A DNA stretch of 40,034 nt from a virus: the IMG/VR virus record IMGVR_UViG_3300044994_000437, positions 1 through 40,034 of that record; one strand, 5' to 3'. The translations under genes and the position numbers were made by a program. The notes beneath the pieces were generated by a model. It worked only from the letters and a program-made list of their open reading frames with translations. It made no database searches and was not told the DNA's origin. Within the stretch, counting starts at the first letter, position 1. Every line of letters starts with the position of its first letter. This document shows, piece after piece, positions 1 through 34,998 of this stretch.

Positions 1-2164
1 CCATGCTGCTTTCGGCATTCCTGTGCTGATGCTGCAGCTCCTCAACTCGTGGCATTAAAAACATCTCTTCTGGGCGACCTATTACAGTACTCTTAAATCG
101 ACCAAACTCGAATAGCTGCATAGTATCGAGGCCAAGATCGGCAATTTCCACTGTTTCTAGCGGTCTAGAAAGCGGGTCAAAAACTGTGGCTCCGGCAAAA
201 GCTGCCAGATCTAGCAAGAAATGATATGGGCTATTAGCCTGAATCGTCATTGGAGTCTTCAGAGGCAATACGTTTATTGAAGTGGGGTTTCTAAAATTAG
301 CTGCCAGAATAGCCAGGACAGACTCAGAGAAGTGATGCGCTACGACAACTAAGTTGGGGCTAATGGCGTTCTTTCCGTACTTAACGCTATCTGACGCATC
401 GCCAAAAATCTCAAGAACTTTCATGATTTGGCTAATATCGTTAATTTTACCATTATAAAGCAAGAACTTGGGGCGCTCGAGCAGGGTTCTGTAATTGCCC
501 TTGTCGTTAATAAACTCTTCAATAAAACGACCGCAAGTCTCTTCAAATCCCTTTGCAATGTGGAAGCCCTCTACCTTTTCAACTTCAAAACCACTAACTC
601 CGGGAGCCTCTGCGATAGTAATATTCCCGCTGTGCCCAACTTCGCCAAATCCCTGAATTACTGCTTCTGACATTTCTTGGTCGTAGTTAGTGGCTACAAG
701 GGCTACCTTCTTTAAAAGGTCCTCGTCGTTTTCAGTGGTAATCTTAATGGCGTTGTCTTGGATAAATGGCACAACAAACTCATTATACGCCTGCTCAAGC
801 TCTCTCATTACCTTTTGAGTGGAAACCCTAGGATTTTCGCGCAGATAGTTCAATCCAAGCCTAATAAGGGCTTCTGCCAAAATTGTAGCGGAAGTAGTAT
901 TGTGAGTGACGACATAGTTATCAGTTATGTACAGGCTGTCCGGATTGCTTACCTTGATGCATTGCATTTCCGTAAAGCGTCCGGTTGGAGTGATGCGAAT
1001 AATCTTGTCTCCTAATTTATGGCCTTTCAATTGAGCAATGCGAATGCTCGTAGTATCAGGATTAACTTTAGAGCGGTTTTTCCTGCTAATAAGCGTAGTA
1101 AGGCCCAAGCTGCTGCAAAGCTGCTTGACATCATGTGCGAATTGTTCTGATGTAGTATTAAACTCAAACATGCCTTTCTTATTGATGTACCCGTCAGAAT
1201 CTATAAGGCCCTGTAGCAATTGTTTTCTAGCAGTCATTGAGCTGTATAAATAAGCTTGTGGTATATGCTTTGTGCTGCTGGGGGCATTTTTGAGCCCTAT
1301 TTGCTTCAAAATATGCTGAATAGAGCGATTGTGCTTGTCAGTTCCTGCAAGCTGCACTCTATAATAATTTTCGTCTTTAATAAATTGAACAGACTTAGTA
1401 ATACCTGCTGGAACAACTAATTTTTCAATAATATGTTTTTTGTCAGCGCCTAAAAATAGCTCAAAGCTTCCAGAATCCCTTACCGTCACGCCCCCAATCA
1501 ATAGTCCTACTAGGTATGGGTCCAGTGGCATTGCTGTCTCGCTGCTCTTAAATTCAACTACAGTTCGTGGCACGAAATACTTATATTTCTTATATCCGCC
1601 ACTTGTTTTTACATAATCCCTGTAAAGTTCTTTGGTTGTCTTATTTTTATTATTTTTATTATACGATACCGACCAAATATGATCTTCACAGCACTCGACT
1701 ACGCCCTTATTCTCAAATTCAACTTCGTATATTTCTTTTAGGCCTTTTGGATATACCCCCAAAACGGTCTGAGTAGTTCCGTTTGTTCCGCTAATTTTCA
1801 TGCCAACGGATACGTCCTTCATTTGGACAAAGCCGCTTGGAGTCAAAACTTTACTATATAATGGCTGTGGTCCATCACCTGCCTCCACATTAGTTTTTGA
1901 AGAACTATCCCTAGCTGCTTCTAGAATTGCCTGTTTCGTGGGATCTGCAAAAGCCATGGAATTAAAAACTGTAATACCGTCTTTGGTAACATATGGCCCA
2001 ATATTTTCTTGACGCTCAATTAAAACGATTTTGCCGTTAGGACCCAAGGTTGAGCCTACGAGCTGACTAGCCTGATGAAGGGTCTCTAATACTACCTTCT
2101 GAATCTTATTTGAATCAGAAGTTATTGTTTTGCTTGCGGTTTTTGATTTAGCAAATTCTTTCAT
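1..2164 (-). CDS. groEL: Phage GroEL-type chaperonin with class 3 intein (partial, C-terminus beyond left edge)
   Basis: This is a phage-encoded 60-kDa chaperonin that would fold phage proteins in an ATP-dependent ring. Reading the reverse strand from the ATG at 2164 gives one open frame to the window edge, so no stop is visible. Extein residues 1-98 contain the GroEL hallmarks GSTLGPNGK and VTKDGITV, then AGDG. After a 324-residue intein the host protein resumes with TTSATILAEALI, restoring the conserved GDGTT ATP-binding motif. The following ~299 residues match the intermediate and apical domains, for example NYDQEMSEAVIQGFGEVG and LAAFAGATVFDP. An AAGGAG ribosome site lies at 2176-2181, a slightly long 11 nt from the start. 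Sequence similarity to bacterial GroEL is low, as in the distant chaperonins of phages such as EL and OBP, so a phage origin is more likely than a host gene. A GroES-like gene lies at 6164-6454. Confidence 0.9.
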   Translation of the reverse strand, partial: MKEFAKSKTASKTITSDSNKIQKVVLETLHQASQLVGSTLGPNGKIVLIERQENIGPYVTKDGITVFNSMAFADPTKQAILEAARDSSSKTNVEAGDGPQPLYSKVLTPSGFVQMKDVSVGMKISGTNGTTQTVLGVYPKGLKEIYEVEFENKGVVECCEDHIWSVSYNKNNKNKTTKELYRDYVKTSGGYKKYKYFVPRTVVEFKSSETAMPLDPYLVGLLIGGVTVRDSGSFELFLGADKKHIIEKLVVPAGITKSVQFIKDENYYRVQLAGTDKHNRSIQHILKQIGLKNAPSSTKHIPQAYLYSSMTARKQLLQGLIDSDGYINKKGMFEFNTTSEQFAHDVKQLCSSLGLTTLISRKNRSKVNPDTTSIRIAQLKGHKLGDKIIRITPTGRFTEMQCIKVSNPDSLYITDNYVVTHNTTSATILAEALIRLGLNYLRENPRVSTQKVMRELEQAYNEFVVPFIQDNAIKITTENDEDLLKKVALVATNYDQEMSEAVIQGFGEVGHSGNITIAEAPGVSGFEVEKVEGFHIAKGFEETCGRFIEEFINDKGNYRTLLERPKFLLYNGKINDISQIMKVLEIFGDASDSVKYGKNAISPNLVVVAHHFSESVLAILAANFRNPTSINVLPLKTPMTIQANSPYHFLLDLAAFAGATVFDPLSRPLETVEIADLGLDTMQLFEFGRFKSTVIGRPEEMFLMPRVEELQHQHRNAESSM
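899..1870 (-). other. Class 3 intein in GroEL with LAGLIDADG endonuclease domain
   Basis: This 324-residue protein insert starts with Pro (PQPLYSKVLTPSG) directly after the GDG of GroEL and ends VVTHN before TT. It has no Cys or Ser at position 1. It carries the three residues that define class 3 inteins: Trp in block B (EDHIWSV, residue 66), Cys in block F (MQCIKV, residue 304) and Thr in block G (VVTHN, residue 322). In that class the block F Cys replaces Cys1 as the first nucleophile. The +1 extein residue is Thr. Two LAGLIDADG helices are visible, PYLVGLLIGG near residue 118 and LLQGLIDSDGYI near residue 218. The first lacks the usual acidic residue, so endonuclease activity may be reduced. 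Splicing would remove 899-1870 at the protein level and rebuild the ATP site. Confidence 0.88.
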
Positions 2165-13539: not shown

Positions 13540-15378
13540 GTGCTGACTAAGCAGCTACAAAAAATAATAGAAGATAATATAAAGAAGACGTTCTCGTCCC
13601 TTAAGATGCATCTTTTGGGACCAGATAAAGTTTCCACTCAGTTCTTGTTTTTATTAAAGAACTTTGATCCCAATACTACAATAGGGCATCTGTATTCTCA
13701 TGCCAATACAGTTAATGATATAAAGCCTGGGCGGCCAGATGATAAGTCTATTAGCAAGCTTAAGGATATTGCAGAAAAGTATATAGATGCCCTAGAGCAA
13801 AAAGCAATAGCAGACACTACTAGGATTGTTGGCGAAAAAATCGACAATTTGACCGTAGAAGCTAAGATAAAGAATCAGAAGCCAGAAGATTACATTAGGC
13901 AGCCAGAGGGACAAAAGATCCTAGCTTCTATCTCAAAAGAATTAAAGGATCAAAGAGACAAGATTAAGAAGGCTGCAGACGTTCTGGTCACCCATGAACT
14001 TCATAATGCACAAAATATAGGTGCGTTCGATGGCATTTTGGGTGCAGCTAAATCGGTTGGCATCGACGACCCTGTCGTTTTTAAGATTGGCGTACTCGAT
14101 GAAAAGCGTTGCCGGATCTGCTGGCGCCTTTGGACAATGCCAGACAAAATTACGCCTAAAGTCTACAAGATGAGTGAACTTTCGGGCAGTCCCGGACACT
14201 GGAAAAATCCAGATGCTAGCGTAAGCCCGACCCATCCCAATTGTTTTACAGAGGGGCGCATGCCAGTTTTAACCGAGACAGGCTGGAAGGCAATTAAAAA
14301 TGTTAAAGTTGGAGAAAAGGTACTAACGCATACAGGTAAATTTAAAAAAGTTGTGGGCGTTATTAATGAGCCATATACCAACAAAAAAAACATGATAATT
14401 CATTATGAGTATAATGGCAGAAGATTTGCACACCATGTCACTCCCGACCATAAATTTTTAACCCAGAGAGGCTGGATAGAAGCAAAAGATTTAACGGAAG
14501 AAGATAAATTTATTCAGTTGAATTATCCGTGTGTGGTTTGTGGAAAGCAAACCAAATTCAAGCATTCCGTAGGCTTTGAAATGTCCAAAACATGCTCTCA
14601 GGCATGCTTCAATGAACTGATGCGTGCCCAAGTCAAGCATTACCACGATACGCTATCCATAGAACAGAAAAGTATTCGGGCGGCAAATTGCTCTCAGGGC
14701 ATTTTAAAAGCATATGAAAATGGTGCCAGGTCTTATTTTGCGTCACAGTATTGGAATGAAGAGAGAAGGGCGCAACAAAGAGATAAACTAATATCTAGAT
14801 TGCCGCAGATGATGCAGGCCTCTGCCTCAACTCGCATATCAAAAAAGCAGCGTTACGTATATTCTTGGATTAAAGATTTTTATAGACAGAAAACTGTTGA
14901 AATGGAATATCAAGTCGGCAGATACTGCATAGATATAGCATTAGTAGAGGATAAAATAGCAATTGAGATAGATGGCAAATACCATGAAGGAGACAGGATA
15001 GCAAAAGATCAAGCCAGGGACTCATGGCTTAAAAATCAAGGCTGGTCCGTATTAAGGTACGGCTTTAAAAAATCTTCGGACATTAAAAAAGATAGAGTTA
15101 TTGCCGATATACAAAATATACTGAACAATCACGATGGAATATATTCATTTCAAGAAACAAAAATACTGTCCATAAAATATGGCCGAACTAGAAACAATGG
15201 AAGAGTCTATTGCCTAACCGTAGAAGAGGACGCATCTTTTGTGGCTCGTGGCATTGTTTCCAGCAATTGTCGCGATATTCTAACCGTCTTAATGCCAGGA
15301 TTCGGATTTGAAGGCAGTAAAATTGTATATAAAGGTAAGGATTACGACGAGTATAAAAAGCAAAGAGGAGACCGTTAG
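13540..15378 (+). CDS. Mu gpF-like minor head protein interrupted by an intein
   Basis: The spliced host protein has 270 residues and resembles the Mu gpF/SPP1 gp7 minor head proteins needed for head assembly, usually encoded right after the portal as here. The conserved features are a helical N-terminus, a CRICWRLW segment (Cys 191 and 194), and the C-terminal HPN-CRDIL motif. The intein splits exactly between HPN (residue 234) and CRDIL (residue 577). The start is GTG at 13540 with GGAG just upstream. The last 4 nt overlap the convergent gene at 15375. The intein is described separately. Confidence 0.82.
   Translation: MLTKQLQKIIEDNIKKTFSSLKMHLLGPDKVSTQFLFLLKNFDPNTTIGHLYSHANTVNDIKPGRPDDKSISKLKDIAEKYIDALEQKAIADTTRIVGEKIDNLTVEAKIKNQKPEDYIRQPEGQKILASISKELKDQRDKIKKAADVLVTHELHNAQNIGAFDGILGAAKSVGIDDPVVFKIGVLDEKRCRICWRLWTMPDKITPKVYKMSELSGSPGHWKNPDASVSPTHPNCFTEGRMPVLTETGWKAIKNVKVGEKVLTHTGKFKKVVGVINEPYTNKKNMIIHYEYNGRRFAHHVTPDHKFLTQRGWIEAKDLTEEDKFIQLNYPCVVCGKQTKFKHSVGFEMSKTCSQACFNELMRAQVKHYHDTLSIEQKSIRAANCSQGILKAYENGARSYFASQYWNEERRAQQRDKLISRLPQMMQASASTRISKKQRYVYSWIKDFYRQKTVEMEYQVGRYCIDIALVEDKIAIEIDGKYHEGDRIAKDQARDSWLKNQGWSVLRYGFKKSSDIKKDRVIADIQNILNNHDGIYSFQETKILSIKYGRTRNNGRVYCLTVEEDASFVARGIVSSNCRDILTVLMPGFGFEGSKIVYKGKDYDEYKKQRGDR
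14242..15267 (+). other. Class 1 intein with EDxHD (Vsr/DUF559-like) endonuclease domain
   Basis: This 342-residue insert begins with Cys1 (CFTEGRMPVLTETGW) and ends RGIVSSN before Cys+1 of the host protein. Block B is HHVTPDHKFLT and block F is RVYCLTVEEDASFV. The residue before the terminal Asn is Ser instead of the common His, which occurs in some active inteins. A zinc-ribbon-like unit (CVVCG then CSQAC) follows block B. The inserted nuclease is not LAGLIDADG or HNH. The segment YCIDIALVEDKIAIEIDGKY and the downstream WLKNQGWSVLRYG match the Vsr-like/DUF559 PD-(D/E)XK fold, the EDxHD homing endonuclease family. This domain would cut intein-free copies of the gene. Confidence 0.85.
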
Positions 15379-20465: not shown

Positions 20466-20498
20466 AAAGCCAGGAGAAATCCTGGCTTTTTTATTTTA
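20466..20498 (+). terminator. Intrinsic terminator after the capsid gene
   Basis: AAAGCCAGGA, loop GAAA, TCCTGGCTTT forms a 10-bp stem with a GNRA-type tetraloop, followed by a T-run (20487-20492) and TATTTT. It ends the head operon 30 nt after the capsid stop. The reverse gene's stop codon lies in its tail. Confidence 0.88.
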
Positions 20499-22089
20499 TG
20501 CGAATAGCCCAGCGCTTCTTGCCGCAGTCCCATATTCTAAAATATCCCTGCGACATCCTAAGCTCTCGCTCAGTCTGGTTCCCATTCCGTTCTTCAGCAG
20601 TCTTCTTGAGTGACTGTTTGGCGAATCTACGATCCCTCACGCCAGCCCTAACGTAACTATAATCTGGACCACTTTCGTCCTCTAATTCAAATCCTAAAGC
20701 CTCGTATACTCTGCCCTCTGACCATCTATTGTCAGACCATGAGACGATCTTGCCGTACCCATTATCTTGTCCCCATTTGATAAGGGCAGACAGCAGCCTT
20801 GACGATCCTCCGCGCACGCTCACGCCGGATAAAAAGCATAAACGCCCAAGTACTAGCGTGCCGGACCCCAAAGATCTATGGTGCCTGTTGCCAGTTATAA
20901 CTCCAACAATCTTGTCATTGATCTTAAGTCCAAAAGCCGCTTCAACTGTTGTCGAAGCAGATCCTTGTATATGGTATTCGTCTATGAATCTATTTGCTAC
21001 CTTCGTGTCCAATAGCTCCACTGTGCATTTCCTGGCATCTACCTTCTCGCTATTGACCCCAAATACAGACTTTAGGTAGCCCTTAACCTGATCCTGCCTG
21101 GATATCCATTCATCTTCAAAAACCGTTATAAGTCTTATCCCATTTTTCTGGCACAGCAGTCTCTTTGTGTTGTGCTTGTTTTTTATTTCATTTAAATATG
21201 ACAAGTACTCCAGATCACCTACCTTATCGGCTCTGGGCTTTTCTGAGTGATAGTATAGGCCACAGTACTCGATGCCTATCTTCATGGATGGTATGTATAT
21301 GTCAATCTCCTTATGCTTACCAGGAGATATTTCTTCTTTAGGTATTTTATACCTCTCTGTAACTAATCCAAAAGATTCTATCCATGCAGACAGCTCTCGC
21401 TCAGCCCGAGAAATGCCTGTATTGTTGCAATGTGGACAATTGTAATTTTGCAGAGCGCCCTCAGCCATTGCATACGTAATAATATGCTTGCCGCTTGGAC
21501 ATATTGCCGAGGCTTGGTTCTTTACACCAGTAAAACTTTCATCGACCAATGTCTTCCCAGTTTGATTAAAAAGCTTTTTTGCAAAAGCACTGGCACTTCG
21601 CACCTGCTTCGGCTGCCCCTGATGAAGTCGAGTGGCACTCTTATAAAACACGGTGCCATCTTCAGCCATGATCTTGTACTTACCGTATTCCCTGCCCAAG
21701 TACTCATACTTCTGGTCTTTAGGCAATCGCTCAAGCACTTCCTCTTTGCTAAGCGCTCGCTCCTCGGCTGCCTCTGCGCGCCCTGGCCTCTCAAGCTTCT
21801 GCTCCCTGGACACCTTGGCTATAAGTTCGTGGCTATATCCGCGCTCTCTAATTTCATTAGTCCTGACACCATTCTTCAGAAGTTCGAGTACCTCATTATA
21901 TCTTTGCTTGTCATGGTCTTCTTTAGTCCTAACTGGAATATTAAACTTCTTAACCCAAGAGGCTATTGTCATTCTTGTTGGCGCGTTTTCAAAAGTTTCT
22001 TTTAGTGCATTGGCGATTGCCATGGTCGTTAGGCCCTGACCTGCAAGCTCTTTGATTTTGGGAATAAAGATTTTTGGGTCGTGCTTCAT
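20491..22089 (-). CDS. Free-standing homing endonuclease (EDxHD/Vsr-type) with HTH and GNAT-like C-terminal domain
   Basis: The 532-residue protein looks like a selfish homing endonuclease. It has an N-terminal helix-turn-helix (TTMAIANALKETFENAPTRMTIASWVKKF, two segments), a Zn-like cluster (Cys197, then CPHC 218-221), and a nuclease domain. In the nuclease EIDIYIPSMKIGIEYCGLYYH supplies Asp263, Glu274 and His281, and LLCQKNGIRLITVFEDEW follows, the Vsr-like PD-(D/E)XK pattern. The C-terminus (residues ~365-500, with IDEYHIQG, LVLGRLCFLSG, VRGGSSRLLSAL, SDNRWSEGRVYEALGF) is the GNAT-like domain often fused to such Hef-like phage endonucleases. It sits in reverse orientation next to the capsid gene, a typical target neighbourhood. 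No Shine-Dalgarno site is clear. A weak TTGCCT-N17-CATACT lies just upstream. Confidence 0.8.
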   Translation of the reverse strand: MKHDPKIFIPKIKELAGQGLTTMAIANALKETFENAPTRMTIASWVKKFNIPVRTKEDHDKQRYNEVLELLKNGVRTNEIRERGYSHELIAKVSREQKLERPGRAEAAEERALSKEEVLERLPKDQKYEYLGREYGKYKIMAEDGTVFYKSATRLHQGQPKQVRSASAFAKKLFNQTGKTLVDESFTGVKNQASAICPSGKHIITYAMAEGALQNYNCPHCNNTGISRAERELSAWIESFGLVTERYKIPKEEISPGKHKEIDIYIPSMKIGIEYCGLYYHSEKPRADKVGDLEYLSYLNEIKNKHNTKRLLCQKNGIRLITVFEDEWISRQDQVKGYLKSVFGVNSEKVDARKCTVELLDTKVANRFIDEYHIQGSASTTVEAAFGLKINDKIVGVITGNRHHRSLGSGTLVLGRLCFLSGVSVRGGSSRLLSALIKWGQDNGYGKIVSWSDNRWSEGRVYEALGFELEDESGPDYSYVRAGVRDRRFAKQSLKKTAEERNGNQTERELRMSQGYFRIWDCGKKRWAIRIK

Positions 22090-22306: not shown

Positions 22307-22573
22307 CTAATTGCTTGACGCTTCTGCATAATTCTTAATGTCTTTATAAAGGCGACCCCGCAACTGATCCCCCAACTGTCCCCAAAGCTGTCCACCCAAC
22401 TGATCCCCCAACTGATCCCACAACTGATTCCCCAACTGACCCCACAACTGATTCCGCAACTGATCCCTCAACTGAGACAACAACTGATCCCTCAACTGAT
22501 CCCCCAACTGATCCCCCAACTGATCCCACAGCTGATTCGCCAAATGCTTATTAATTGGCTTACGTTTCTTCAT
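22307..22573 (-). CDS. Tetrad-repeat (xQLx) protein, array copy 6, 88 aa
   Basis: This is the longest and last member of the array. It begins MKKRKPINKHL, continues with about 15 tetrads of the form D/N/G-Q-L-G/R/W, and ends with LYKDIKNYAEASSN. Its tail differs from the LYKGIKYYEET of the others because the usual junction has decayed: it still holds an out-of-frame ATG-CAG-AAG-CGT like a relic of a seventh start. The start lies 14 nt inside the previous gene and has no clear ribosome site, so translation is probably coupled. The function is unknown. Leu and Gln at every fourth residue could make a helical stripe for self-association. Confidence 0.7.
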   Translation of the reverse strand: MKKRKPINKHLANQLWDQLGDQLGDQLRDQLLSQLRDQLRNQLWGQLGNQLWDQLGDQLGGQLWGQLGDQLRGRLYKDIKNYAEASSN

Positions 22574-22769
22574 AATACTTAATGCCTTTATAAAGCCGAT
22601 ACTTCAACTGATCCCACAACTGAGGCCACAACTGATTCCCCAACTGACCCCACAACTGATTCCGCAACTGATCCCTCAACTGAGACAACAACTGATCCCT
22701 CAACTGATCCCCCAACTGATACCCCAACTGATCCTCCAACCGCCCAACAATCTTCTTACGTTTCTTCAT
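22560..22769 (-). CDS. Tetrad-repeat (xQLx) protein, array copy 5, 69 aa
   Basis: Starts MKKRKKIVGRL and ends LYKGIKYYEET, with about 11 xQLx tetrads between. It shares a 109-bp block with copy 6 at one mismatch, so the two were duplicated or converted recently. It overlaps copies 4 and 6 by 14 nt each through the shared TATGAAGAAACGTAAG-type junction. Confidence 0.7.
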   Translation of the reverse strand: MKKRKKIVGRLEDQLGYQLGDQLRDQLLSQLRDQLRNQLWGQLGNQLWPQLWDQLKYRLYKGIKYYEET

Positions 22770-22941
22770 AATACTTAATGCCTTTATAAAGCCGATGCCT
22801 CAACTGCTCCCCAAACTGTCCCCAAAGCTGTCCACCCAACTGATGCCACAGCTGTCCCCACAAGTGAACACCTAACTGATCCCCCAACCGATCCCTCAAC
22901 TGATCCCTCAACCGATCCCTCAACTGCCTACGCTTATTCAT
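22756..22941 (-). CDS. Tetrad-repeat (xQLx) protein, array copy 4, 61 aa
   Basis: Starts MNKRRQLRDRL and ends LRHRLYKGIKYYEET. The middle has R-D-Q/R-L-G/W tetrads (RDQLRDRLGDQLG), including VHLWGQLWHQLG. Its start overlaps the stop of copy 3 by 8 nt instead of the usual 14, because copy 3 ends early at SYE. Confidence 0.68.
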   Translation of the reverse strand: MNKRRQLRDRLRDQLRDRLGDQLGVHLWGQLWHQLGGQLWGQFGEQLRHRLYKGIKYYEET

Positions 22942-23101
22942 AAGACTTAATACCTTTATAAAGCTGATTCATCAACTGTCCCAAAAACGGCACCTGCAAC
23001 TGATCCCACAACTGTCCCCACAACTGACCACCTAACCGATCCCCCAACTGATCCCTCAACTGATACCACAACCGATCCCTCAAATGCCTACGCTTCTTCA
23101 T
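22934..23101 (-). CDS. Tetrad-repeat (xQLx) protein, array copy 3, 55 aa
   Basis: Starts MKKRRHLRDRLWYQL and ends QLYKGIKSYE. The tetrad register is briefly broken by QVPFLGQLMNQ near the end. It starts 14 nt inside copy 2. It is short but has the same head and tail as its neighbours, which is the main support for it being real. Confidence 0.62.
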   Translation of the reverse strand: MKKRRHLRDRLWYQLRDQLGDRLGGQLWGQLWDQLQVPFLGQLMNQLYKGIKSYE

Positions 23102-23201
23102 AATACTTAATGCCTTTATAAAGCCGATACCTCAACTGCTCCCCAAACTGACTCCCCAACTGATCCCACAACTGCCCATTAACATGTTTACGTTTCTTCA
23201 T
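23088..23201 (-). CDS. Tetrad-repeat (xQLx) protein, array copy 2, 37 aa
   Basis: The shortest member, starting MKKRKHVNGQL and ending YRLYKGIKYYEEA, with only about four tetrads (WDQLGSQFGEQLR). It is probably a contracted copy. The conserved head, tail and 14-nt overlaps on both sides argue that it is still translated. Confidence 0.55.
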   Translation of the reverse strand: MKKRKHVNGQLWDQLGSQFGEQLRYRLYKGIKYYEEA

Positions 23202-23361
23202 AATATTTAATGCCCCTATAAAGGGGCTGCCCTAACTCATCCCACAACTGATCCCACAACTGCCTCCCCAACTGTCCCCAAAGCTGTCCACCCAACCGAT
23301 ACCACAGCTGATTTGTCAACTGATTCCTCAAATATCCATTAATCTGCTTACGCTTCTTCAT
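23188..23361 (-). CDS. Tetrad-repeat (xQLx) protein, array copy 1, 57 aa
   Basis: The first array member after the membrane-protein gene, whose last 14 nt it overlaps. It starts MKKRKQINGYLRNQL, has about eight tetrads, and ends LYRGIKYYEET. No independent ribosome site is clear. Reinitiation after the upstream stop is the likely route. Confidence 0.65.
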   Translation of the reverse strand: MKKRKQINGYLRNQLTNQLWYRLGGQLWGQLGRQLWDQLWDELGQPLYRGIKYYEET

Positions 23362-28544: not shown

Positions 28545-29152
28545 AGCATGTATTGCCTGGACATTATTTTATTTTCTCTGTAGAAAATCCGAAGCATCAG
28601 GTGACCGCTTCCGGCGTACCCAGCACTGAAGAGGCCGTAAAGTTTCTAAGGCAATCAGGAGAGGATGCACTAGATTTGCATGGTCATTATGATGGGAAGC
28701 ACGAGCGCTCTATTCTTGTCAGGCACCCAAAGAATGTAAAAGGACTGACTGAAATGGCTAGACAACTAGGGCAGGAGTCAGTCATACATTCAATGGACAA
28801 TAAACACGAACTTAAATATTTGAATGGACCTCAAGCTGGTACTTCTGTGCATGGAAGTGGAGTGCAGTTTTATAAAGAAAAACCAGATGGAGACCACTCT
28901 GTCATGCACACGGACGAAGGTCCAGTTCACTTTAAGTTAAACTTTAATTTTGGAGATCAATCTAATAAACTTAAAAAGAGCGAGTGGGATAAAGAACTAG
29001 GAATCGTCTCTGATGAAATTAGGCGACTTCAGGAAGCGCACAGACACAATAGATCAATAGCCATACAAGAGGCTAAAGATCATGCCCAAAAAATTGGGCA
29101 CCACGATCACATGTTTTTATATCATTTAGGTAGAGCTTTTGGTAAAGAATAA
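28541..29152 (+). CDS. DUF3293-like domain protein, 203 aa
   Basis: Residues 1-95, with PGHYFIFSVENPKHQVTAS, AVKFLRQSG, HYDGKHERSILV and MARQLGQESVIHSM, follow the pattern of DUF3293-like domains (GxxxIxSAENP, GxYxGxxExSxLV, GQExVI). Such domains occur in polyvalent phage and mobile-element proteins. The exact reaction is not known to me. The tail is helical and His-rich (EAHRHNRSIAIQEAKDHAQK). It starts on an ATGA overlap with the 27093 gene and its stop shares a base with the next start (TAATG), so the polyvalent genes are one coupled operon. Confidence 0.6.
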   Translation: MKHVLPGHYFIFSVENPKHQVTASGVPSTEEAVKFLRQSGEDALDLHGHYDGKHERSILVRHPKNVKGLTEMARQLGQESVIHSMDNKHELKYLNGPQAGTSVHGSGVQFYKEKPDGDHSVMHTDEGPVHFKLNFNFGDQSNKLKKSEWDKELGIVSDEIRRLQEAHRHNRSIAIQEAKDHAQKIGHHDHMFLYHLGRAFGKE

Positions 29153-32100
29153 TGGCTAAATTTAAAGTTCCAGAACCAAAATATATTGCCAAATTGAAGC
29201 ACCCCACACTACAAGACAAGAGTGGCGAAGCTATTTGGAAACCAGACGATACTGCCATCCCGGCGTATTTCCGACACAAAATGACCGATAAAGAATATAT
29301 CAACTTATTGGCCGGCGCTTACGGACATAGCGATTTTGATATATCACAACTAAAAAAATACCTAAATGAGTCTAGACACAATAACGAGAAAAATAATGAT
29401 TTGGCTCTGGCTAAAGTTTTGTCGCACATTGCGCAGTCGCAAGGCGGCGTTAAACCCACCTCAAAACATGTGGATATTGATGAAGGCAGATTGCGGCACA
29501 TTATTAATGATTATCCAATATCTTCAGAGGCAATTCATCATATAATTGATAATCATGATTCATTTCCAATTTCAACCTACCGAGAGCATCTGACTCCACT
29601 AGCGGATCAAAAAAACTTAAATAAAGATCATGTAATTAAAATTTTTAAGACCGGTGCCGATAAGGACATTGATTTATCCCAATTTATTAATCATAAGCTC
29701 TTCGATAAAGACTTGGCCGACCATCTTATATATAATACTAATTACAAATTAAAATCTAATGATGTTGCAGCACTTAATAAATACTCAAAACATAATGACC
29801 CATCCAAAAATCTGCTCGAAAATAGGCACATTAAGCACATACTAGATAACAACAAAGCAGGAGCTACTGCTTTCCCACAACTACTGTCATCCATTAAACC
29901 ATCAAAAAATTTACTTGGAGAAGAAGATCACTCATACAGAAATTCTATAATATCTAAATATATAGGGCATGAAGGTGCTAAGCTATATGATATAGATGAT
30001 GCGGAAGAGATGGCCTCTTCGCCGGATACAAATTATAATTTAATGAGCCCGGGCTTTGGATATAAAACGGACATTTCTAAGGAAATACTTAGGAATTCGC
30101 CACATTTAACGCCAGAACATATTGATTATATTAAACGTCATGGCAATTTTGAGCAAAAATGGGCATTATTTCATAATAAGCATATAGACCCACAACATCA
30201 AATTGAAATGCACAATAAATGGGCAAACGATAACCATGAGCACGGATACGATTTAGAACAGCTTAAAACAAAGATTCAAAATCAAAACGATTTTCAGAAT
30301 AGCTATGATTACTATTATGAAGATGCCAGAGATCAGGCAGAAGAAGAGTACCCATTAAGTGAATACATAAGAGACAACGTAGAAGACTCAGATCTAATGG
30401 ATGGAATGGAACAAGACGAATGGATCAACAATCATCTTGCTGAAAATTATAATTGGCAAACAGATGACGACGATTTCACGTACTCCATTGAAGACCATCC
30501 CGATTATGATGCCCGAAGAGATGAGGCCCAGGAAGCCTATAATTCTGCTTTAGAGGCCAGGCGTGCCAATCCACAAGATCACCTAGATGATCGGACTATG
30601 GATAGAATTTATGAAGGCCATTCAGAATCAATATCCGATGATGTGTCTAGAATAGCCAGAAGAATGCATGACGAAAGAATGGAGAATGCGCACCTAGACT
30701 ATGATTTTCTCCCTGAACATCTGAAAGATAAGCTCCCGGCTGTTAATGAGCACATTGAAAATAAAAAACGGACTGCCGAAGAGAGGGCCCGCCTAGAGGC
30801 CGCTAAAAAAGAAGCTGCATTAAAACCTAAACTTGATGAGCTGATACCAAATCGCAATAATACGCACGCTTACGGTGATCTACAGCATCATTTAGAATTG
30901 GCACAGCATTATGCGGACGCTAATGGCGGCTCTATTGATATTGGACATTTAAATAAAATACATCCAAATATTAAAGATAATTGGAAAAAGATCTTTGGAG
31001 AAAAAGGAAAACTATCCTCACAAGAATTGCAGAAGATTCGCGACTCCATTCCTAAAACCAACTATAATATTTCTTACGGAGTATGGGATGGCAGTAAGAT
31101 GCAGAATATTAACAATCGAGATCAGGTTGTCGTTCGCCTAGACCACTCAAATGAGTCTATTGCTCCAATTAAGGCAGATCCAAACACGTACAAAATATTT
31201 CAAAAAATTCAAGAAGTATCGCAAAGATCCGGTCATCCCACTAATCTTAATACGATTGCTTGGGCACGAGTAGATACTCATGAGCCAGGACACTGGATGA
31301 TTGATGAAGTTCAGTCAGATTTCGGATCTGCAGCCAGAGATTATTTGGATCAAAATGATAAGTCTGAAGAGGCCGAGCACGTCAACAAGATTATTAATTA
31401 CCATAAGAACTGGCGAGAAGCTCTTATCAACAAAGTAATTTCGATGGCCAAAGATAACGGAGTGAACATAATATCCACTCACTCGCCAGAATCTAAGGCA
31501 TCTCACACAAATGCTGACAAAGTGCATACGGTGTATAAAGAGAGCTACCAGAAAGTGCCTAGATCTATGGGCTTTAAGCCAGTCCATAATAAAGAGCTTC
31601 CCCTTACTGAAGGGGGCCGTAAAAAGATTGGAAGAAAAACAACTGGAACTCCAGTCGGTGCACTCCTTGAGGATCATGCAGCAGGAATGGATACGCACGC
31701 TTGGCTGGCTCAGGCTCATAAAAATTTAGCTGCAGCCAAAGTCTATCCGCCTATGGCTGGAATATCCGATCGGCGCGTTCCGATGGACGCAGATACCATT
31801 GATTTGCACCAAAAACTAGCAGATCACCATACGACAAAGTTTCGTGAGCACCATCAGCGGCTTTCTAATTTAGACCCCACACATGCCCTAAGGAACTATC
31901 CTTCAGTATCTAGTTACATTGAGGGATCAAGTTCTGGGTTTAAAAGAATGAATCCAGAAGAGAAAGAGCAGAAGCATAATGCTAATCTTGTGGCCGCTCG
32001 CATGTCTGCCAAGGAAATTATGAACGAAGGCTATGGCATGCCCGTTTATGGCCACGATTCTGCGCTAAAAGAGGCCCCTGCATCTGAGAATCACGGACAT

Positions 32101-34998
32101 CAGATTGACCTAAGCCCCCCTAAGCTTAAAAAGTCAATTGACGATGCAGACTTTGATATGGAGTTTGAGAAGCTACAAAAGGCACCGGTTGAGAACACTA
32201 ACTTAGAGTCCTTTGACGGCTGGCACGATATACCTAAATCGTATAAACACGTGTCCTCAAAGCAGCTTAAAAACGGATTGTATCATCATACTTTTGCTGG
32301 ACATTATGGCCCAGAAAAATCTCCTATTTTTTATCACGCTGTTTCGGATTCTAAGCATCCACACGATACTCATATGGCGAGAGTCCAAGTTAGTATCGAG
32401 CCATACACAAATGAACCAATAGTCACAGAGTCTCACGTAAATCCACAACATGCTGGGCACGGTCACGGTAAGCTCGCATACGCAGCTGCTTTGGCGCATC
32501 ACGGCAGACTAGAAAGCGACTACGCGGTATCTCAGAACGCCCATAAGGCTTGGCAAAACTTAAATGGATTACCGTCGGTTAATCTGTCTATTAAACCTAT
32601 GGGTAGCCCAGATCCCAATAGGGCTATGGCTTCAGATGTTAAAAAGCTAAGGGCGTACCTCTATAAGACTGAGGACTTAATAAAAGACGAAGCCGCAACA
32701 AGGGTCCGTAACGGATGGCCGATGCCAGAGCACTCAGCCAGAACATTTCAAGATCCAGAATTATTTGAGAGTAAATTAAATGATCTTTATCAAAAATTAG
32801 AGCCGCTTAAAAATTTAGAATTTTCCTGGGAAAAAGATGAGGCTCAAGCAAGGCTACATGATCTTCTAGACAATCCAACGTATCGAGGCAAGTATTCTCC
32901 AGAAGTACTAGATGTCATTGCTTCTCACTCAGATGAAGATATTAGAAAAAGCATACATATACACCCCAATGCAGAACATAGCAGGCACATAAAGCCAGCG
33001 ATCGATAGGGACCGTGCTGCATGGATAGCCAAAGTACAGAAGGCACTCAGCTCCAGCTCTGGAGCCCTACCCTCAAGCGTTCCCGTGCATGAGGATGCAA
33101 ATCTTGATGATTGGCAGCTCAACTGGCTGGCTTCGCACGGCGACACTAGAGCAAACAATTACGCTATTAATCACCCTAATGCCGAGCCTAGACATATTGA
33201 AAAGGCAATTAATACTGTTTTGGCCCGAAAACATCCCTATAAAGACGATTCGTTTTGGCTTAAGCTTGGCAACAATCCCAAAACAACTGAGGATCAGCTG
33301 ATGCTTGCTCATCGCCAAGTAAGCCCACATTATAGGACGCACTTGTCCAAGAAACTAAGAGAAAGAGGAATATATACAGATCCAAACCAAGTTGAATTTG
33401 CCTTAGGAACTAATAAACTTAGGTCAGCAAGAGACCACATTATAAATAATGGTTCCGAGGGGAAAATGCACAAAAAAGATCTGGAGCTGGCCGGACACTC
33501 CCCGCAAGCCCTAGGAATATCGCATCTATTGGATGGCACCGGACATATTCATCACGAAGACATTCAGAGGCACATAGACGCTCAGCCCAAGATGAAATTT
33601 GGTTTTAGTAAAACGAGCTATGGCTCAGAAGATAGCCCTCGATACCTTGAGGATATGCTGTCAGATCACTTAGAAGCTTTTAATCCAGAAGATTATGGCG
33701 TACACAAGAGTGATTTTCTTGATTATGGTAAAATCAAAAAATATCATAATAAACAATTTAAGCCGGATTTTGACGAGACTGACTTCGACTCTCATGAAGA
33801 ATATGAACAGGCGCTAGACGATGCCAGACGAGACTGGGAAGACGGCTTCAATTTAGATGATTACGATTATTTGGCAGAGAAGGACGACAAGTATCTAGAT
33901 AAAGATTCTTATGAGCGCGAAGTTCAATCGGCCAAAGATCGCCATATGGACAACTTCGATTCTGGCGATTACGGTGTAACGCACGAGCAGGCATATGAGA
34001 ATGCCCTGGAAGAGCAGCGCCATACATATGAGCCATCTGAGGTATTTCAGTTAAACTTCACAAAAGAACATGCAGACAAGATGAAAGAGTCGGGAGTTTG
34101 GGGAACTTTTAAGAACATGCAAGAGGCATCGAAGCGCTCAAAACATCCAGTTCTTGATAATACTATTGGATGGGTTCGCTATACTCAAGATCAACAAGGC
34201 AATACACATATAGATGAAATTCAGTCTGATTTTGGTCAGTCATTTATCAAGCAGGCACAAAAGCAGATAAAGGACGCATTAAGCTCAGGCCAAATTAACC
34301 AACAGCAGGCCGAGCAAGCTTACGCAAACGCGCATGCCAAGTGGCCAGAAGAGCATTATAATAAAATAAATGAGATACTTTTTAATAACAAGCATCCAAA
34401 TGAAATACTCCATGAGGCGTTCCTGCAGCACTTAAGAGACAATAATCGAGTTGGCAGTAAGGTTCACATTTGGGACAGTAAAGAAAAAGCTGATCTGTCA
34501 GGAATGTCAAGTTCCGGGTACATCAATTTACAGGACATTGGAAAAATAATCAATAATGATCTATCTGTTGGCGATAGACTTCCCCCGGCAACGGTCAACC
34601 ACGCCAAAAACTGGATTAAGCAGCAGGGCATGACTCCAGAAAACTGGGAAGCCAAGTCAAAAGAAATTATAAGACAGCAGCGGCCCCTACTGAGTGAATC
34701 TGAAATTGAATCTTACCCAATATCCTTCCCTATGCCAGTGCCAGCCCATATGCAATTTACTTATAATCAGCACCCTAAAAAGATGGGCTATAAGCCCTCT
34801 AAATACGGCGAACTTGAAACGCAGCACAACCCATATCTTAAGGGCAAATCAACTTGGTCAGATACTCTCAAAAAGAAAGAAAAATTGGACCCAGATCAAA
34901 TTGAAAAGCTTAAAAATCTACTAGAAAATGTAGAAAATGTTGACATAGATATGCCATGGAATGATATAATTAAGTACTCTACCCACAGGTGGGCCTAA
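29152..34998 (+). CDS. Giant polyvalent protein, 1948 aa, with duplicated EIQSD domain and GNAT-like domain
   Basis: This very large, His-, Asn- and Asp-rich protein has several parts. The N-terminal ~550 residues hold helical repeat-like units (YISSEAIHHIIDNH-like). Residues ~640-830 contain TIAWARVDTHEPGHWMIDEVQSDFG and, later, VPRSMGFKP. About 1070-1140 is GNAT-like (ESHVNPQHAGHGHGKLAYAA, then LESDYAVSQNAHKAWQNL). Residues ~1230-1400 hold IHIHPNAEHSRHIKPAI-type repeats. Residues ~1600-1935 are a second copy of the first domain (TIGWVRYTQDQ, IDEIQSDFG, then HPKKMGYKP). The E[VI]QSDFG domain is widespread in large polyvalent phage proteins. Its reaction is unknown to me. The size and position suggest an ejected virion protein. 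Confidence 0.65.
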   Translation: MAKFKVPEPKYIAKLKHPTLQDKSGEAIWKPDDTAIPAYFRHKMTDKEYINLLAGAYGHSDFDISQLKKYLNESRHNNEKNNDLALAKVLSHIAQSQGGVKPTSKHVDIDEGRLRHIINDYPISSEAIHHIIDNHDSFPISTYREHLTPLADQKNLNKDHVIKIFKTGADKDIDLSQFINHKLFDKDLADHLIYNTNYKLKSNDVAALNKYSKHNDPSKNLLENRHIKHILDNNKAGATAFPQLLSSIKPSKNLLGEEDHSYRNSIISKYIGHEGAKLYDIDDAEEMASSPDTNYNLMSPGFGYKTDISKEILRNSPHLTPEHIDYIKRHGNFEQKWALFHNKHIDPQHQIEMHNKWANDNHEHGYDLEQLKTKIQNQNDFQNSYDYYYEDARDQAEEEYPLSEYIRDNVEDSDLMDGMEQDEWINNHLAENYNWQTDDDDFTYSIEDHPDYDARRDEAQEAYNSALEARRANPQDHLDDRTMDRIYEGHSESISDDVSRIARRMHDERMENAHLDYDFLPEHLKDKLPAVNEHIENKKRTAEERARLEAAKKEAALKPKLDELIPNRNNTHAYGDLQHHLELAQHYADANGGSIDIGHLNKIHPNIKDNWKKIFGEKGKLSSQELQKIRDSIPKTNYNISYGVWDGSKMQNINNRDQVVVRLDHSNESIAPIKADPNTYKIFQKIQEVSQRSGHPTNLNTIAWARVDTHEPGHWMIDEVQSDFGSAARDYLDQNDKSEEAEHVNKIINYHKNWREALINKVISMAKDNGVNIISTHSPESKASHTNADKVHTVYKESYQKVPRSMGFKPVHNKELPLTEGGRKKIGRKTTGTPVGALLEDHAAGMDTHAWLAQAHKNLAAAKVYPPMAGISDRRVPMDADTIDLHQKLADHHTTKFREHHQRLSNLDPTHALRNYPSVSSYIEGSSSGFKRMNPEEKEQKHNANLVAARMSAKEIMNEGYGMPVYGHDSALKEAPASENHGHQIDLSPPKLKKSIDDADFDMEFEKLQKAPVENTNLESFDGWHDIPKSYKHVSSKQLKNGLYHHTFAGHYGPEKSPIFYHAVSDSKHPHDTHMARVQVSIEPYTNEPIVTESHVNPQHAGHGHGKLAYAAALAHHGRLESDYAVSQNAHKAWQNLNGLPSVNLSIKPMGSPDPNRAMASDVKKLRAYLYKTEDLIKDEAATRVRNGWPMPEHSARTFQDPELFESKLNDLYQKLEPLKNLEFSWEKDEAQARLHDLLDNPTYRGKYSPEVLDVIASHSDEDIRKSIHIHPNAEHSRHIKPAIDRDRAAWIAKVQKALSSSSGALPSSVPVHEDANLDDWQLNWLASHGDTRANNYAINHPNAEPRHIEKAINTVLARKHPYKDDSFWLKLGNNPKTTEDQLMLAHRQVSPHYRTHLSKKLRERGIYTDPNQVEFALGTNKLRSARDHIINNGSEGKMHKKDLELAGHSPQALGISHLLDGTGHIHHEDIQRHIDAQPKMKFGFSKTSYGSEDSPRYLEDMLSDHLEAFNPEDYGVHKSDFLDYGKIKKYHNKQFKPDFDETDFDSHEEYEQALDDARRDWEDGFNLDDYDYLAEKDDKYLDKDSYEREVQSAKDRHMDNFDSGDYGVTHEQAYENALEEQRHTYEPSEVFQLNFTKEHADKMKESGVWGTFKNMQEASKRSKHPVLDNTIGWVRYTQDQQGNTHIDEIQSDFGQSFIKQAQKQIKDALSSGQINQQQAEQAYANAHAKWPEEHYNKINEILFNNKHPNEILHEAFLQHLRDNNRVGSKVHIWDSKEKADLSGMSSSGYINLQDIGKIINNDLSVGDRLPPATVNHAKNWIKQQGMTPENWEAKSKEIIRQQRPLLSESEIESYPISFPMPVPAHMQFTYNQHPKKMGYKPSKYGELETQHNPYLKGKSTWSDTLKKKEKLDPDQIEKLKNLLENVENVDIDMPWNDIIKYSTHRWA

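Follow-up and report, generated by a model that had tools for sequence, protein, structure and literature searches.

The gene for a GroEL-like chaperonin at the edge of the window, the whole 40,034-nucleotide stretch of viral DNA analysed here, very probably carries a class 3 LAGLIDADG intein in its GDG|TT loop, a copy of a single horizontally moved allele whose endonuclease in the window is probably inactive. The GDG-TT loop of GroEL binds the phosphates of ATP, and the insertion parts the Asp of GDG from the two Thr residues after it. The neighbouring genes are those of a tailed phage (terminase, portal, major head protein, helicase, sigma factor). By terminase the nearest sequenced phage is Myxococcus phage Mx1 (27%), and the Mx1 GroEL is also the nearest sequenced relative of the extein (40%). 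The features of the gene are as follows, residues being numbered from the first residue of the intein unless stated otherwise.

2-2164, minus strand: GroEL-like chaperonin reading frame, open from its Met to the window edge, which truncates it
1871..2164, minus strand: N-extein, the first 98 aa of the phage GroEL, ending in ...TNVEAGDG (Cpn60 match; gap-free against empty-site GroELs)
899..1870, minus strand: predicted class 3 intein of 324 aa, PQPLYSK...VVTHN (WCT triad; 31-member same-site family; AF2 model with pLDDT 92)
1868..1870, minus strand: Pro1 of the intein, no N-terminal nucleophile (Pro in 31/31)
1673..1681, minus strand: block B His64-Ile-Trp66 (B:10, B:12; His and Trp each in 31/31)
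1487..1516, minus strand: LAGLIDADG motif 1, degenerate YLVGLLIGGV (family YLxGxLLGDG; Gly in the window copy only)
1190..1219, minus strand: LAGLIDADG motif 2, LLQGLIDSDG, Asp kept
959..961, minus strand: block F Cys304 (F:4), predicted first nucleophile (31/31)
899..907, minus strand: block G Thr322-His323-Asn324 (Thr is G:5; 31/31)
896..898, minus strand: Thr+1, predicted second nucleophile, also the conserved Thr in the ATP loop of GroEL (invariant in alignments)
2..898, minus strand: C-extein TTSATILAEAL..., 299 aa in the window and 498 aa in the complete copy (GroEL match; complete gene L003)

A complete copy of the gene, 920 aa long and 100% identical, is found in two further assemblies of the same phage (L003/L004), where the chaperonin around the intein amounts to 596 aa (98 + 498); a 119.5-kb contig of this phage is likewise 100% identical to the window over a 2.5-kb test stretch. 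Matches to Cpn60 (Pfam, 4.9e-14) and to the PHROG GroEL family (1.8e-43) flank the insert, lying before residue 99 and after residue 422 of the precursor, and the host is thus a phage chaperonin, as the first-pass annotation had it. The protein is a Cpn60 sequence with invariant TKDG and GDGTT nucleotide motifs, and the alignment shows that invariant GroEL residues are kept on either side of the insert. No GroES partner was found in the 119.5-kb contig, and GroES is present in 3 of the 21 records searched, in two of them above the curated cut-off. Some phages encode GroEL only, without GroES (PMC7185714).

The insert occupies amino acids 99-422 of the precursor and splits the ATP loop exactly between GDG and TT; this corresponds to the first-pass coordinates of 899-1870. 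The split of GDG/TT claimed there is borne out by the empty-site relatives L013, L014 and Mx1, which align across GDG|TT without a gap. What defines a class 3 intein is the presence of Trp B:12, Cys F:4 and Thr G:5 together with the lack of a nucleophile at the first residue (PMC5222942; PMC7664689). The window insert has no Cys, Ser or Thr at position 1 and carries the WCT triplet as W66/C304/T322, in the numbering already given correctly by the first-pass annotation, along with block B His64, the terminal His323-Asn324 and a nucleophilic Thr+1. In all, 31 distinct phage GroEL inteins located between GDG and T were collected, one of them from a genome contig and the others from IMG/VR, which was searched by intein, GroEL and junction pattern. 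As P1, H64, W66, C304, T322, H323 and N324 are each kept in 31/31 of these same-site members, the insert is not a chance occurrence, and both the Pro start and the Trp/Cys/Thr triad noted earlier hold for the whole family. Assignment to class 1 or class 2 is extremely unlikely and was dropped because of the first residue and the WCT triad: the N-terminal region of the insert does match the class 1 gp41-1 intein in sequence, but all 31 members lack Cys, Ser or Thr at position 1 and have Cys F:4, Trp B:12 and Thr G:5, and the WCT triplet is absent from class 2 inteins (PMC7664689, PMC5222942).

The AlphaFold2 model of the insert, built on a 27-sequence alignment, reached a pLDDT of 92.1 and a pTM of 0.89. 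Its top matches in the PDB are homing-endonuclease inteins, TliVMA (6e-15) and PI-SceI (1e-14), followed by the class 3 DnaB splicing domains 6riy, 6rix and 6bs8. The first-pass annotation would have given up its reading had a model lacked the Hint fold; by these matches to inteins and class 3 splicing domains, the confident model has the intein fold, including the Hint fold that class 3 membership demands. Sequence, phylogeny and structure model together support the view that the insert is a class 3 intein at the GDG/TT site of a phage chaperonin. The AlphaFold model of the 920-aa precursor, with a pTM of 0.55 and low-confidence junction segments, was too poor to use.

In the proposed mechanism, Cys304 would attack the Gly98-Pro1 bond to give a branched thioester and Thr+1 would then take over the N-extein; cyclisation of Asn324 would free the intein, and an O-N shift would restore the native GDG-TT in the 596-aa chaperonin. 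Judging from the position of the insertion, the unspliced subunit is likely to be without a working ATP site and inactive, and the window intein would persist because the gene needs intein splicing. That the phage GroEL is a pseudogene and the insert a Hint remnant, dead or unable to splice, is highly unlikely. The degenerate motif 1 of the window copy and a one-base shift within the intein of the relatives L009/L010 speak for such decay, and a class 3 intein pseudogene without activity has been described (PMC3196547), but in the complete copy the 920-aa frame is open throughout, every splicing residue is intact and the invariant GroEL residues persist on both sides.

LAGLIDADG_3 (1.3e-8) and Hom_end (9.4e-8) match inside the insert and the domain itself is present, but the window copy does not have both LAGLIDADG motifs with their catalytic acidic residues. 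The motif 1 Asp is found in 24 of the 27 inteins having the motif, and is replaced by Gly in the window (IGGV) and by Asn in L032/L033. With this catalytic Asp lost and the splicing residues intact, the window endonuclease is probably dead. Changes at conserved sites point the same way in other members: L032/L033 and L021 have many at endonuclease sites, and none and one, respectively, at splicing sites (L032, 21/40 endonuclease vs 0/48 splicing sites altered, p 1e-9; L021, 12/40 vs 1/48, p 4e-4). In the window copy the counts are 6/40 vs 2/48, a difference that is not significant alone (p 0.13). Most family members keep an intact-looking endonuclease. A homing cycle is expected to leave such a pattern: after invasion the endonuclease decays, while selection on the host protein maintains splicing.

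Members of the family range from 139 to 339 aa in length. One, of 247 aa, has a partial endonuclease, and three mini-inteins with the WCT triad intact occupy the same GroEL site (L045, L121 and L124, of 139, 146 and 150 aa); these represent natural small class 3 splicing domains. In L009 and L010 (4001-5003) a common one-base insertion (AAA -> AAAA) after block B breaks the intein frame, which may be either a real frameshift or a sequencing error. Among the 80 GroELs nearest to that of the window, 75 have an empty site and 5, with three intein types, carry an intein; seamless empty sites occur in GroELs 59-65% identical to the window's. At the insertion site, intein-bearing and empty forms alike show DNA conservation at the first and second codon positions. 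In 84,980 bacterial and archaeal species genomes a GroEL intein was found on one contig only (L047), and this contig looks like phage from terminase-like and portal-like genes recognised by reading of the translations.

A tree was made of 29 GroEL inteins and 16 class 3 inteins of other proteins, the latter mostly splitting P-loops (GK|T or GK|S) of P-loop ATPases. All GroEL inteins fall on one side of a branch with 99% SH-aLRT and thus look like one allele rather than the outcome of repeated invasions, with the caveat that motif-based sampling favours the same subfamily. Within the family the median pairwise identity is 49% for the intein vs 26% for the extein. Among the inteins, the window copy clusters with that of L140/L005 (89-94%), although the GroELs concerned share only about 30% identity. 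The GroEL of the window, by contrast, falls in a group with those of L013, L106, L016 and other mostly empty-site phages. For groupings picked after the trees were viewed, the AU test rejected the window with L016 on the intein data (p 0.006) and the window with L140 on the extein data (p 0.0002). The starred branches require at least four changes of intein presence. The trees come from a quick search and contain long branches among the distant exteins; furthermore, intein and extein distances correlate (r 0.57), so that descent is partly vertical. The phylogeny of phage GroEL with and without the insert, which the first-pass annotation had proposed as a check, hence gave conflicting intein and GroEL trees and a patchy presence, as a site-specific mobile intein spreading among phage chaperonins would produce. 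We infer that a single site-specific allele has moved horizontally, originally by homing, into a conserved site of very divergent phage chaperonins, a spread that the near-universal coding of Gly-Asp-Gly-Thr-Thr at the site may have aided.

The first-pass annotation had further suggested that splicing could control when the phage chaperonin becomes active. Such a timing switch is possible but found no support here: empty-site relatives, horizontal spread, decaying endonucleases and mini-inteins fit a selfish homing element. We consider it improbable that the intein is kept because conditional splicing sets the time at which the chaperonin gains its ATP site, for example by redox control through Cys304 and the block B cysteines 60/61. 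A switch in a chaperonin is conceivable by analogy with a class 3 DnaB intein in a P-loop that is inhibited, reversibly, when its block F Cys is oxidised (PMC6195587). Each of the 31 motif slices moreover has Cys at position 60 and Cys or Ser at position 61, but the block B Cys pair is found too in class 3 inteins from other genes, which were partly retrieved by that motif. It is equally improbable that splicing is conditional, redox- or temperature-gated for instance, and that inteins with a dead endonuclease are retained as a regulatory part of the phage folding machine. The endonucleases of the window, L021 and L032 look dead and yet the splicing residues persist; splicing, however, must persist anyway, since the chaperonin would otherwise be broken, and most family members retain an endonuclease that appears intact. 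Most of the nearest phage GroELs (75/80), the 59-65% identical relatives among them, manage without an intein, and this patchy presence in close relatives argues that the intein is not required.

In the open-access literature searched, no intein in GroEL, Cpn60 or thermosome was found reported. A comparison with 50,697 sequenced phage records gave 745 matching records; among the 60 listed, the closest intein match is about 32% identical and none is a chaperonin intein. The first-pass remark that chaperonin inteins are very unusual thus stands as regards the searched literature and, at this similarity, the sequenced phages, but not for environmental phage contigs, among which the 31 distinct sequences form a widespread family. 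As a canonical class 3 intein the system is of a known kind; its host protein is new, and the allele family is newly delineated. The WCT triad and Hint fold are shared with the class 3 inteins of phages and prophages (mycobacterial DnaB site b, MP-Be DnaB, terminase, helicase). These P-loop inteins also usually contain a LAGLIDADG domain, and likewise sit in a phosphate-binding loop with a Ser/Thr of the loop as +1 nucleophile. They differ in that the host here is a chaperonin and that the GroEL inteins form a separate clade. The VMA inteins PI-SceI and TliVMA resemble the window intein in combining splicing and LAGLIDADG domains in one chain but, in contrast to it, belong to class 1, have an N-terminal Cys and are only about 15% identical. 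Phage EL gp146 and the GroEL of Mx1 are likewise divergent phage chaperonins, but the site is empty in Mx1, and the paper on the structure of the phage EL chaperonin does not mention an intein.

Chaperonins thus join the list of intein-bearing proteins, and in phage chaperonins that have diverged widely a single site-specific allele is represented by full-length copies, copies with a decayed endonuclease, mini-inteins and empty sites. Both the homing cycle and the question whether inteins are parasites or regulators thereby become testable, in a protein whose ATPase activity should be sharply different before and after splicing. The insertion also matches the known tendency of class 3 inteins to split loops that bind phosphate, here in a fold with no relation to that of the P-loop ATPases.

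Elsewhere in the window, a second, unrelated intein lies at 13540-15378 (plus strand) in a likely Mu-F-like head protein, split as HPN|CFTEG...GIVSSN|CRDI. It has Cys1, a TPDH block B and Ser replacing the penultimate His (Intein_splicing, 2.2e-10), and the nuclease inside it is of the REase-like DUF559 type (1e-11) and not LAGLIDADG. A Methylococcus prophage provides a known case of an intein in a Mu F protein (PMC517821). The protein encoded at 20491-22089 (minus strand), adjoining the head genes, matches a homing endonuclease / HNH PHROG (1e-75) and in its C-terminal part a Mom-like acetyltransferase (PF25680, PF00583), an odd combination. The 1948-aa protein encoded at 29152-34998 (plus strand) has no Pfam match at 0.01. 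A dense 12-bp tandem repeat array, with a unit of about CAACTGATCCCC and higher-order periods of 100-196 bp, spans 22357-23312, and more copies of it are present nearby in the 119.5-kb contig.
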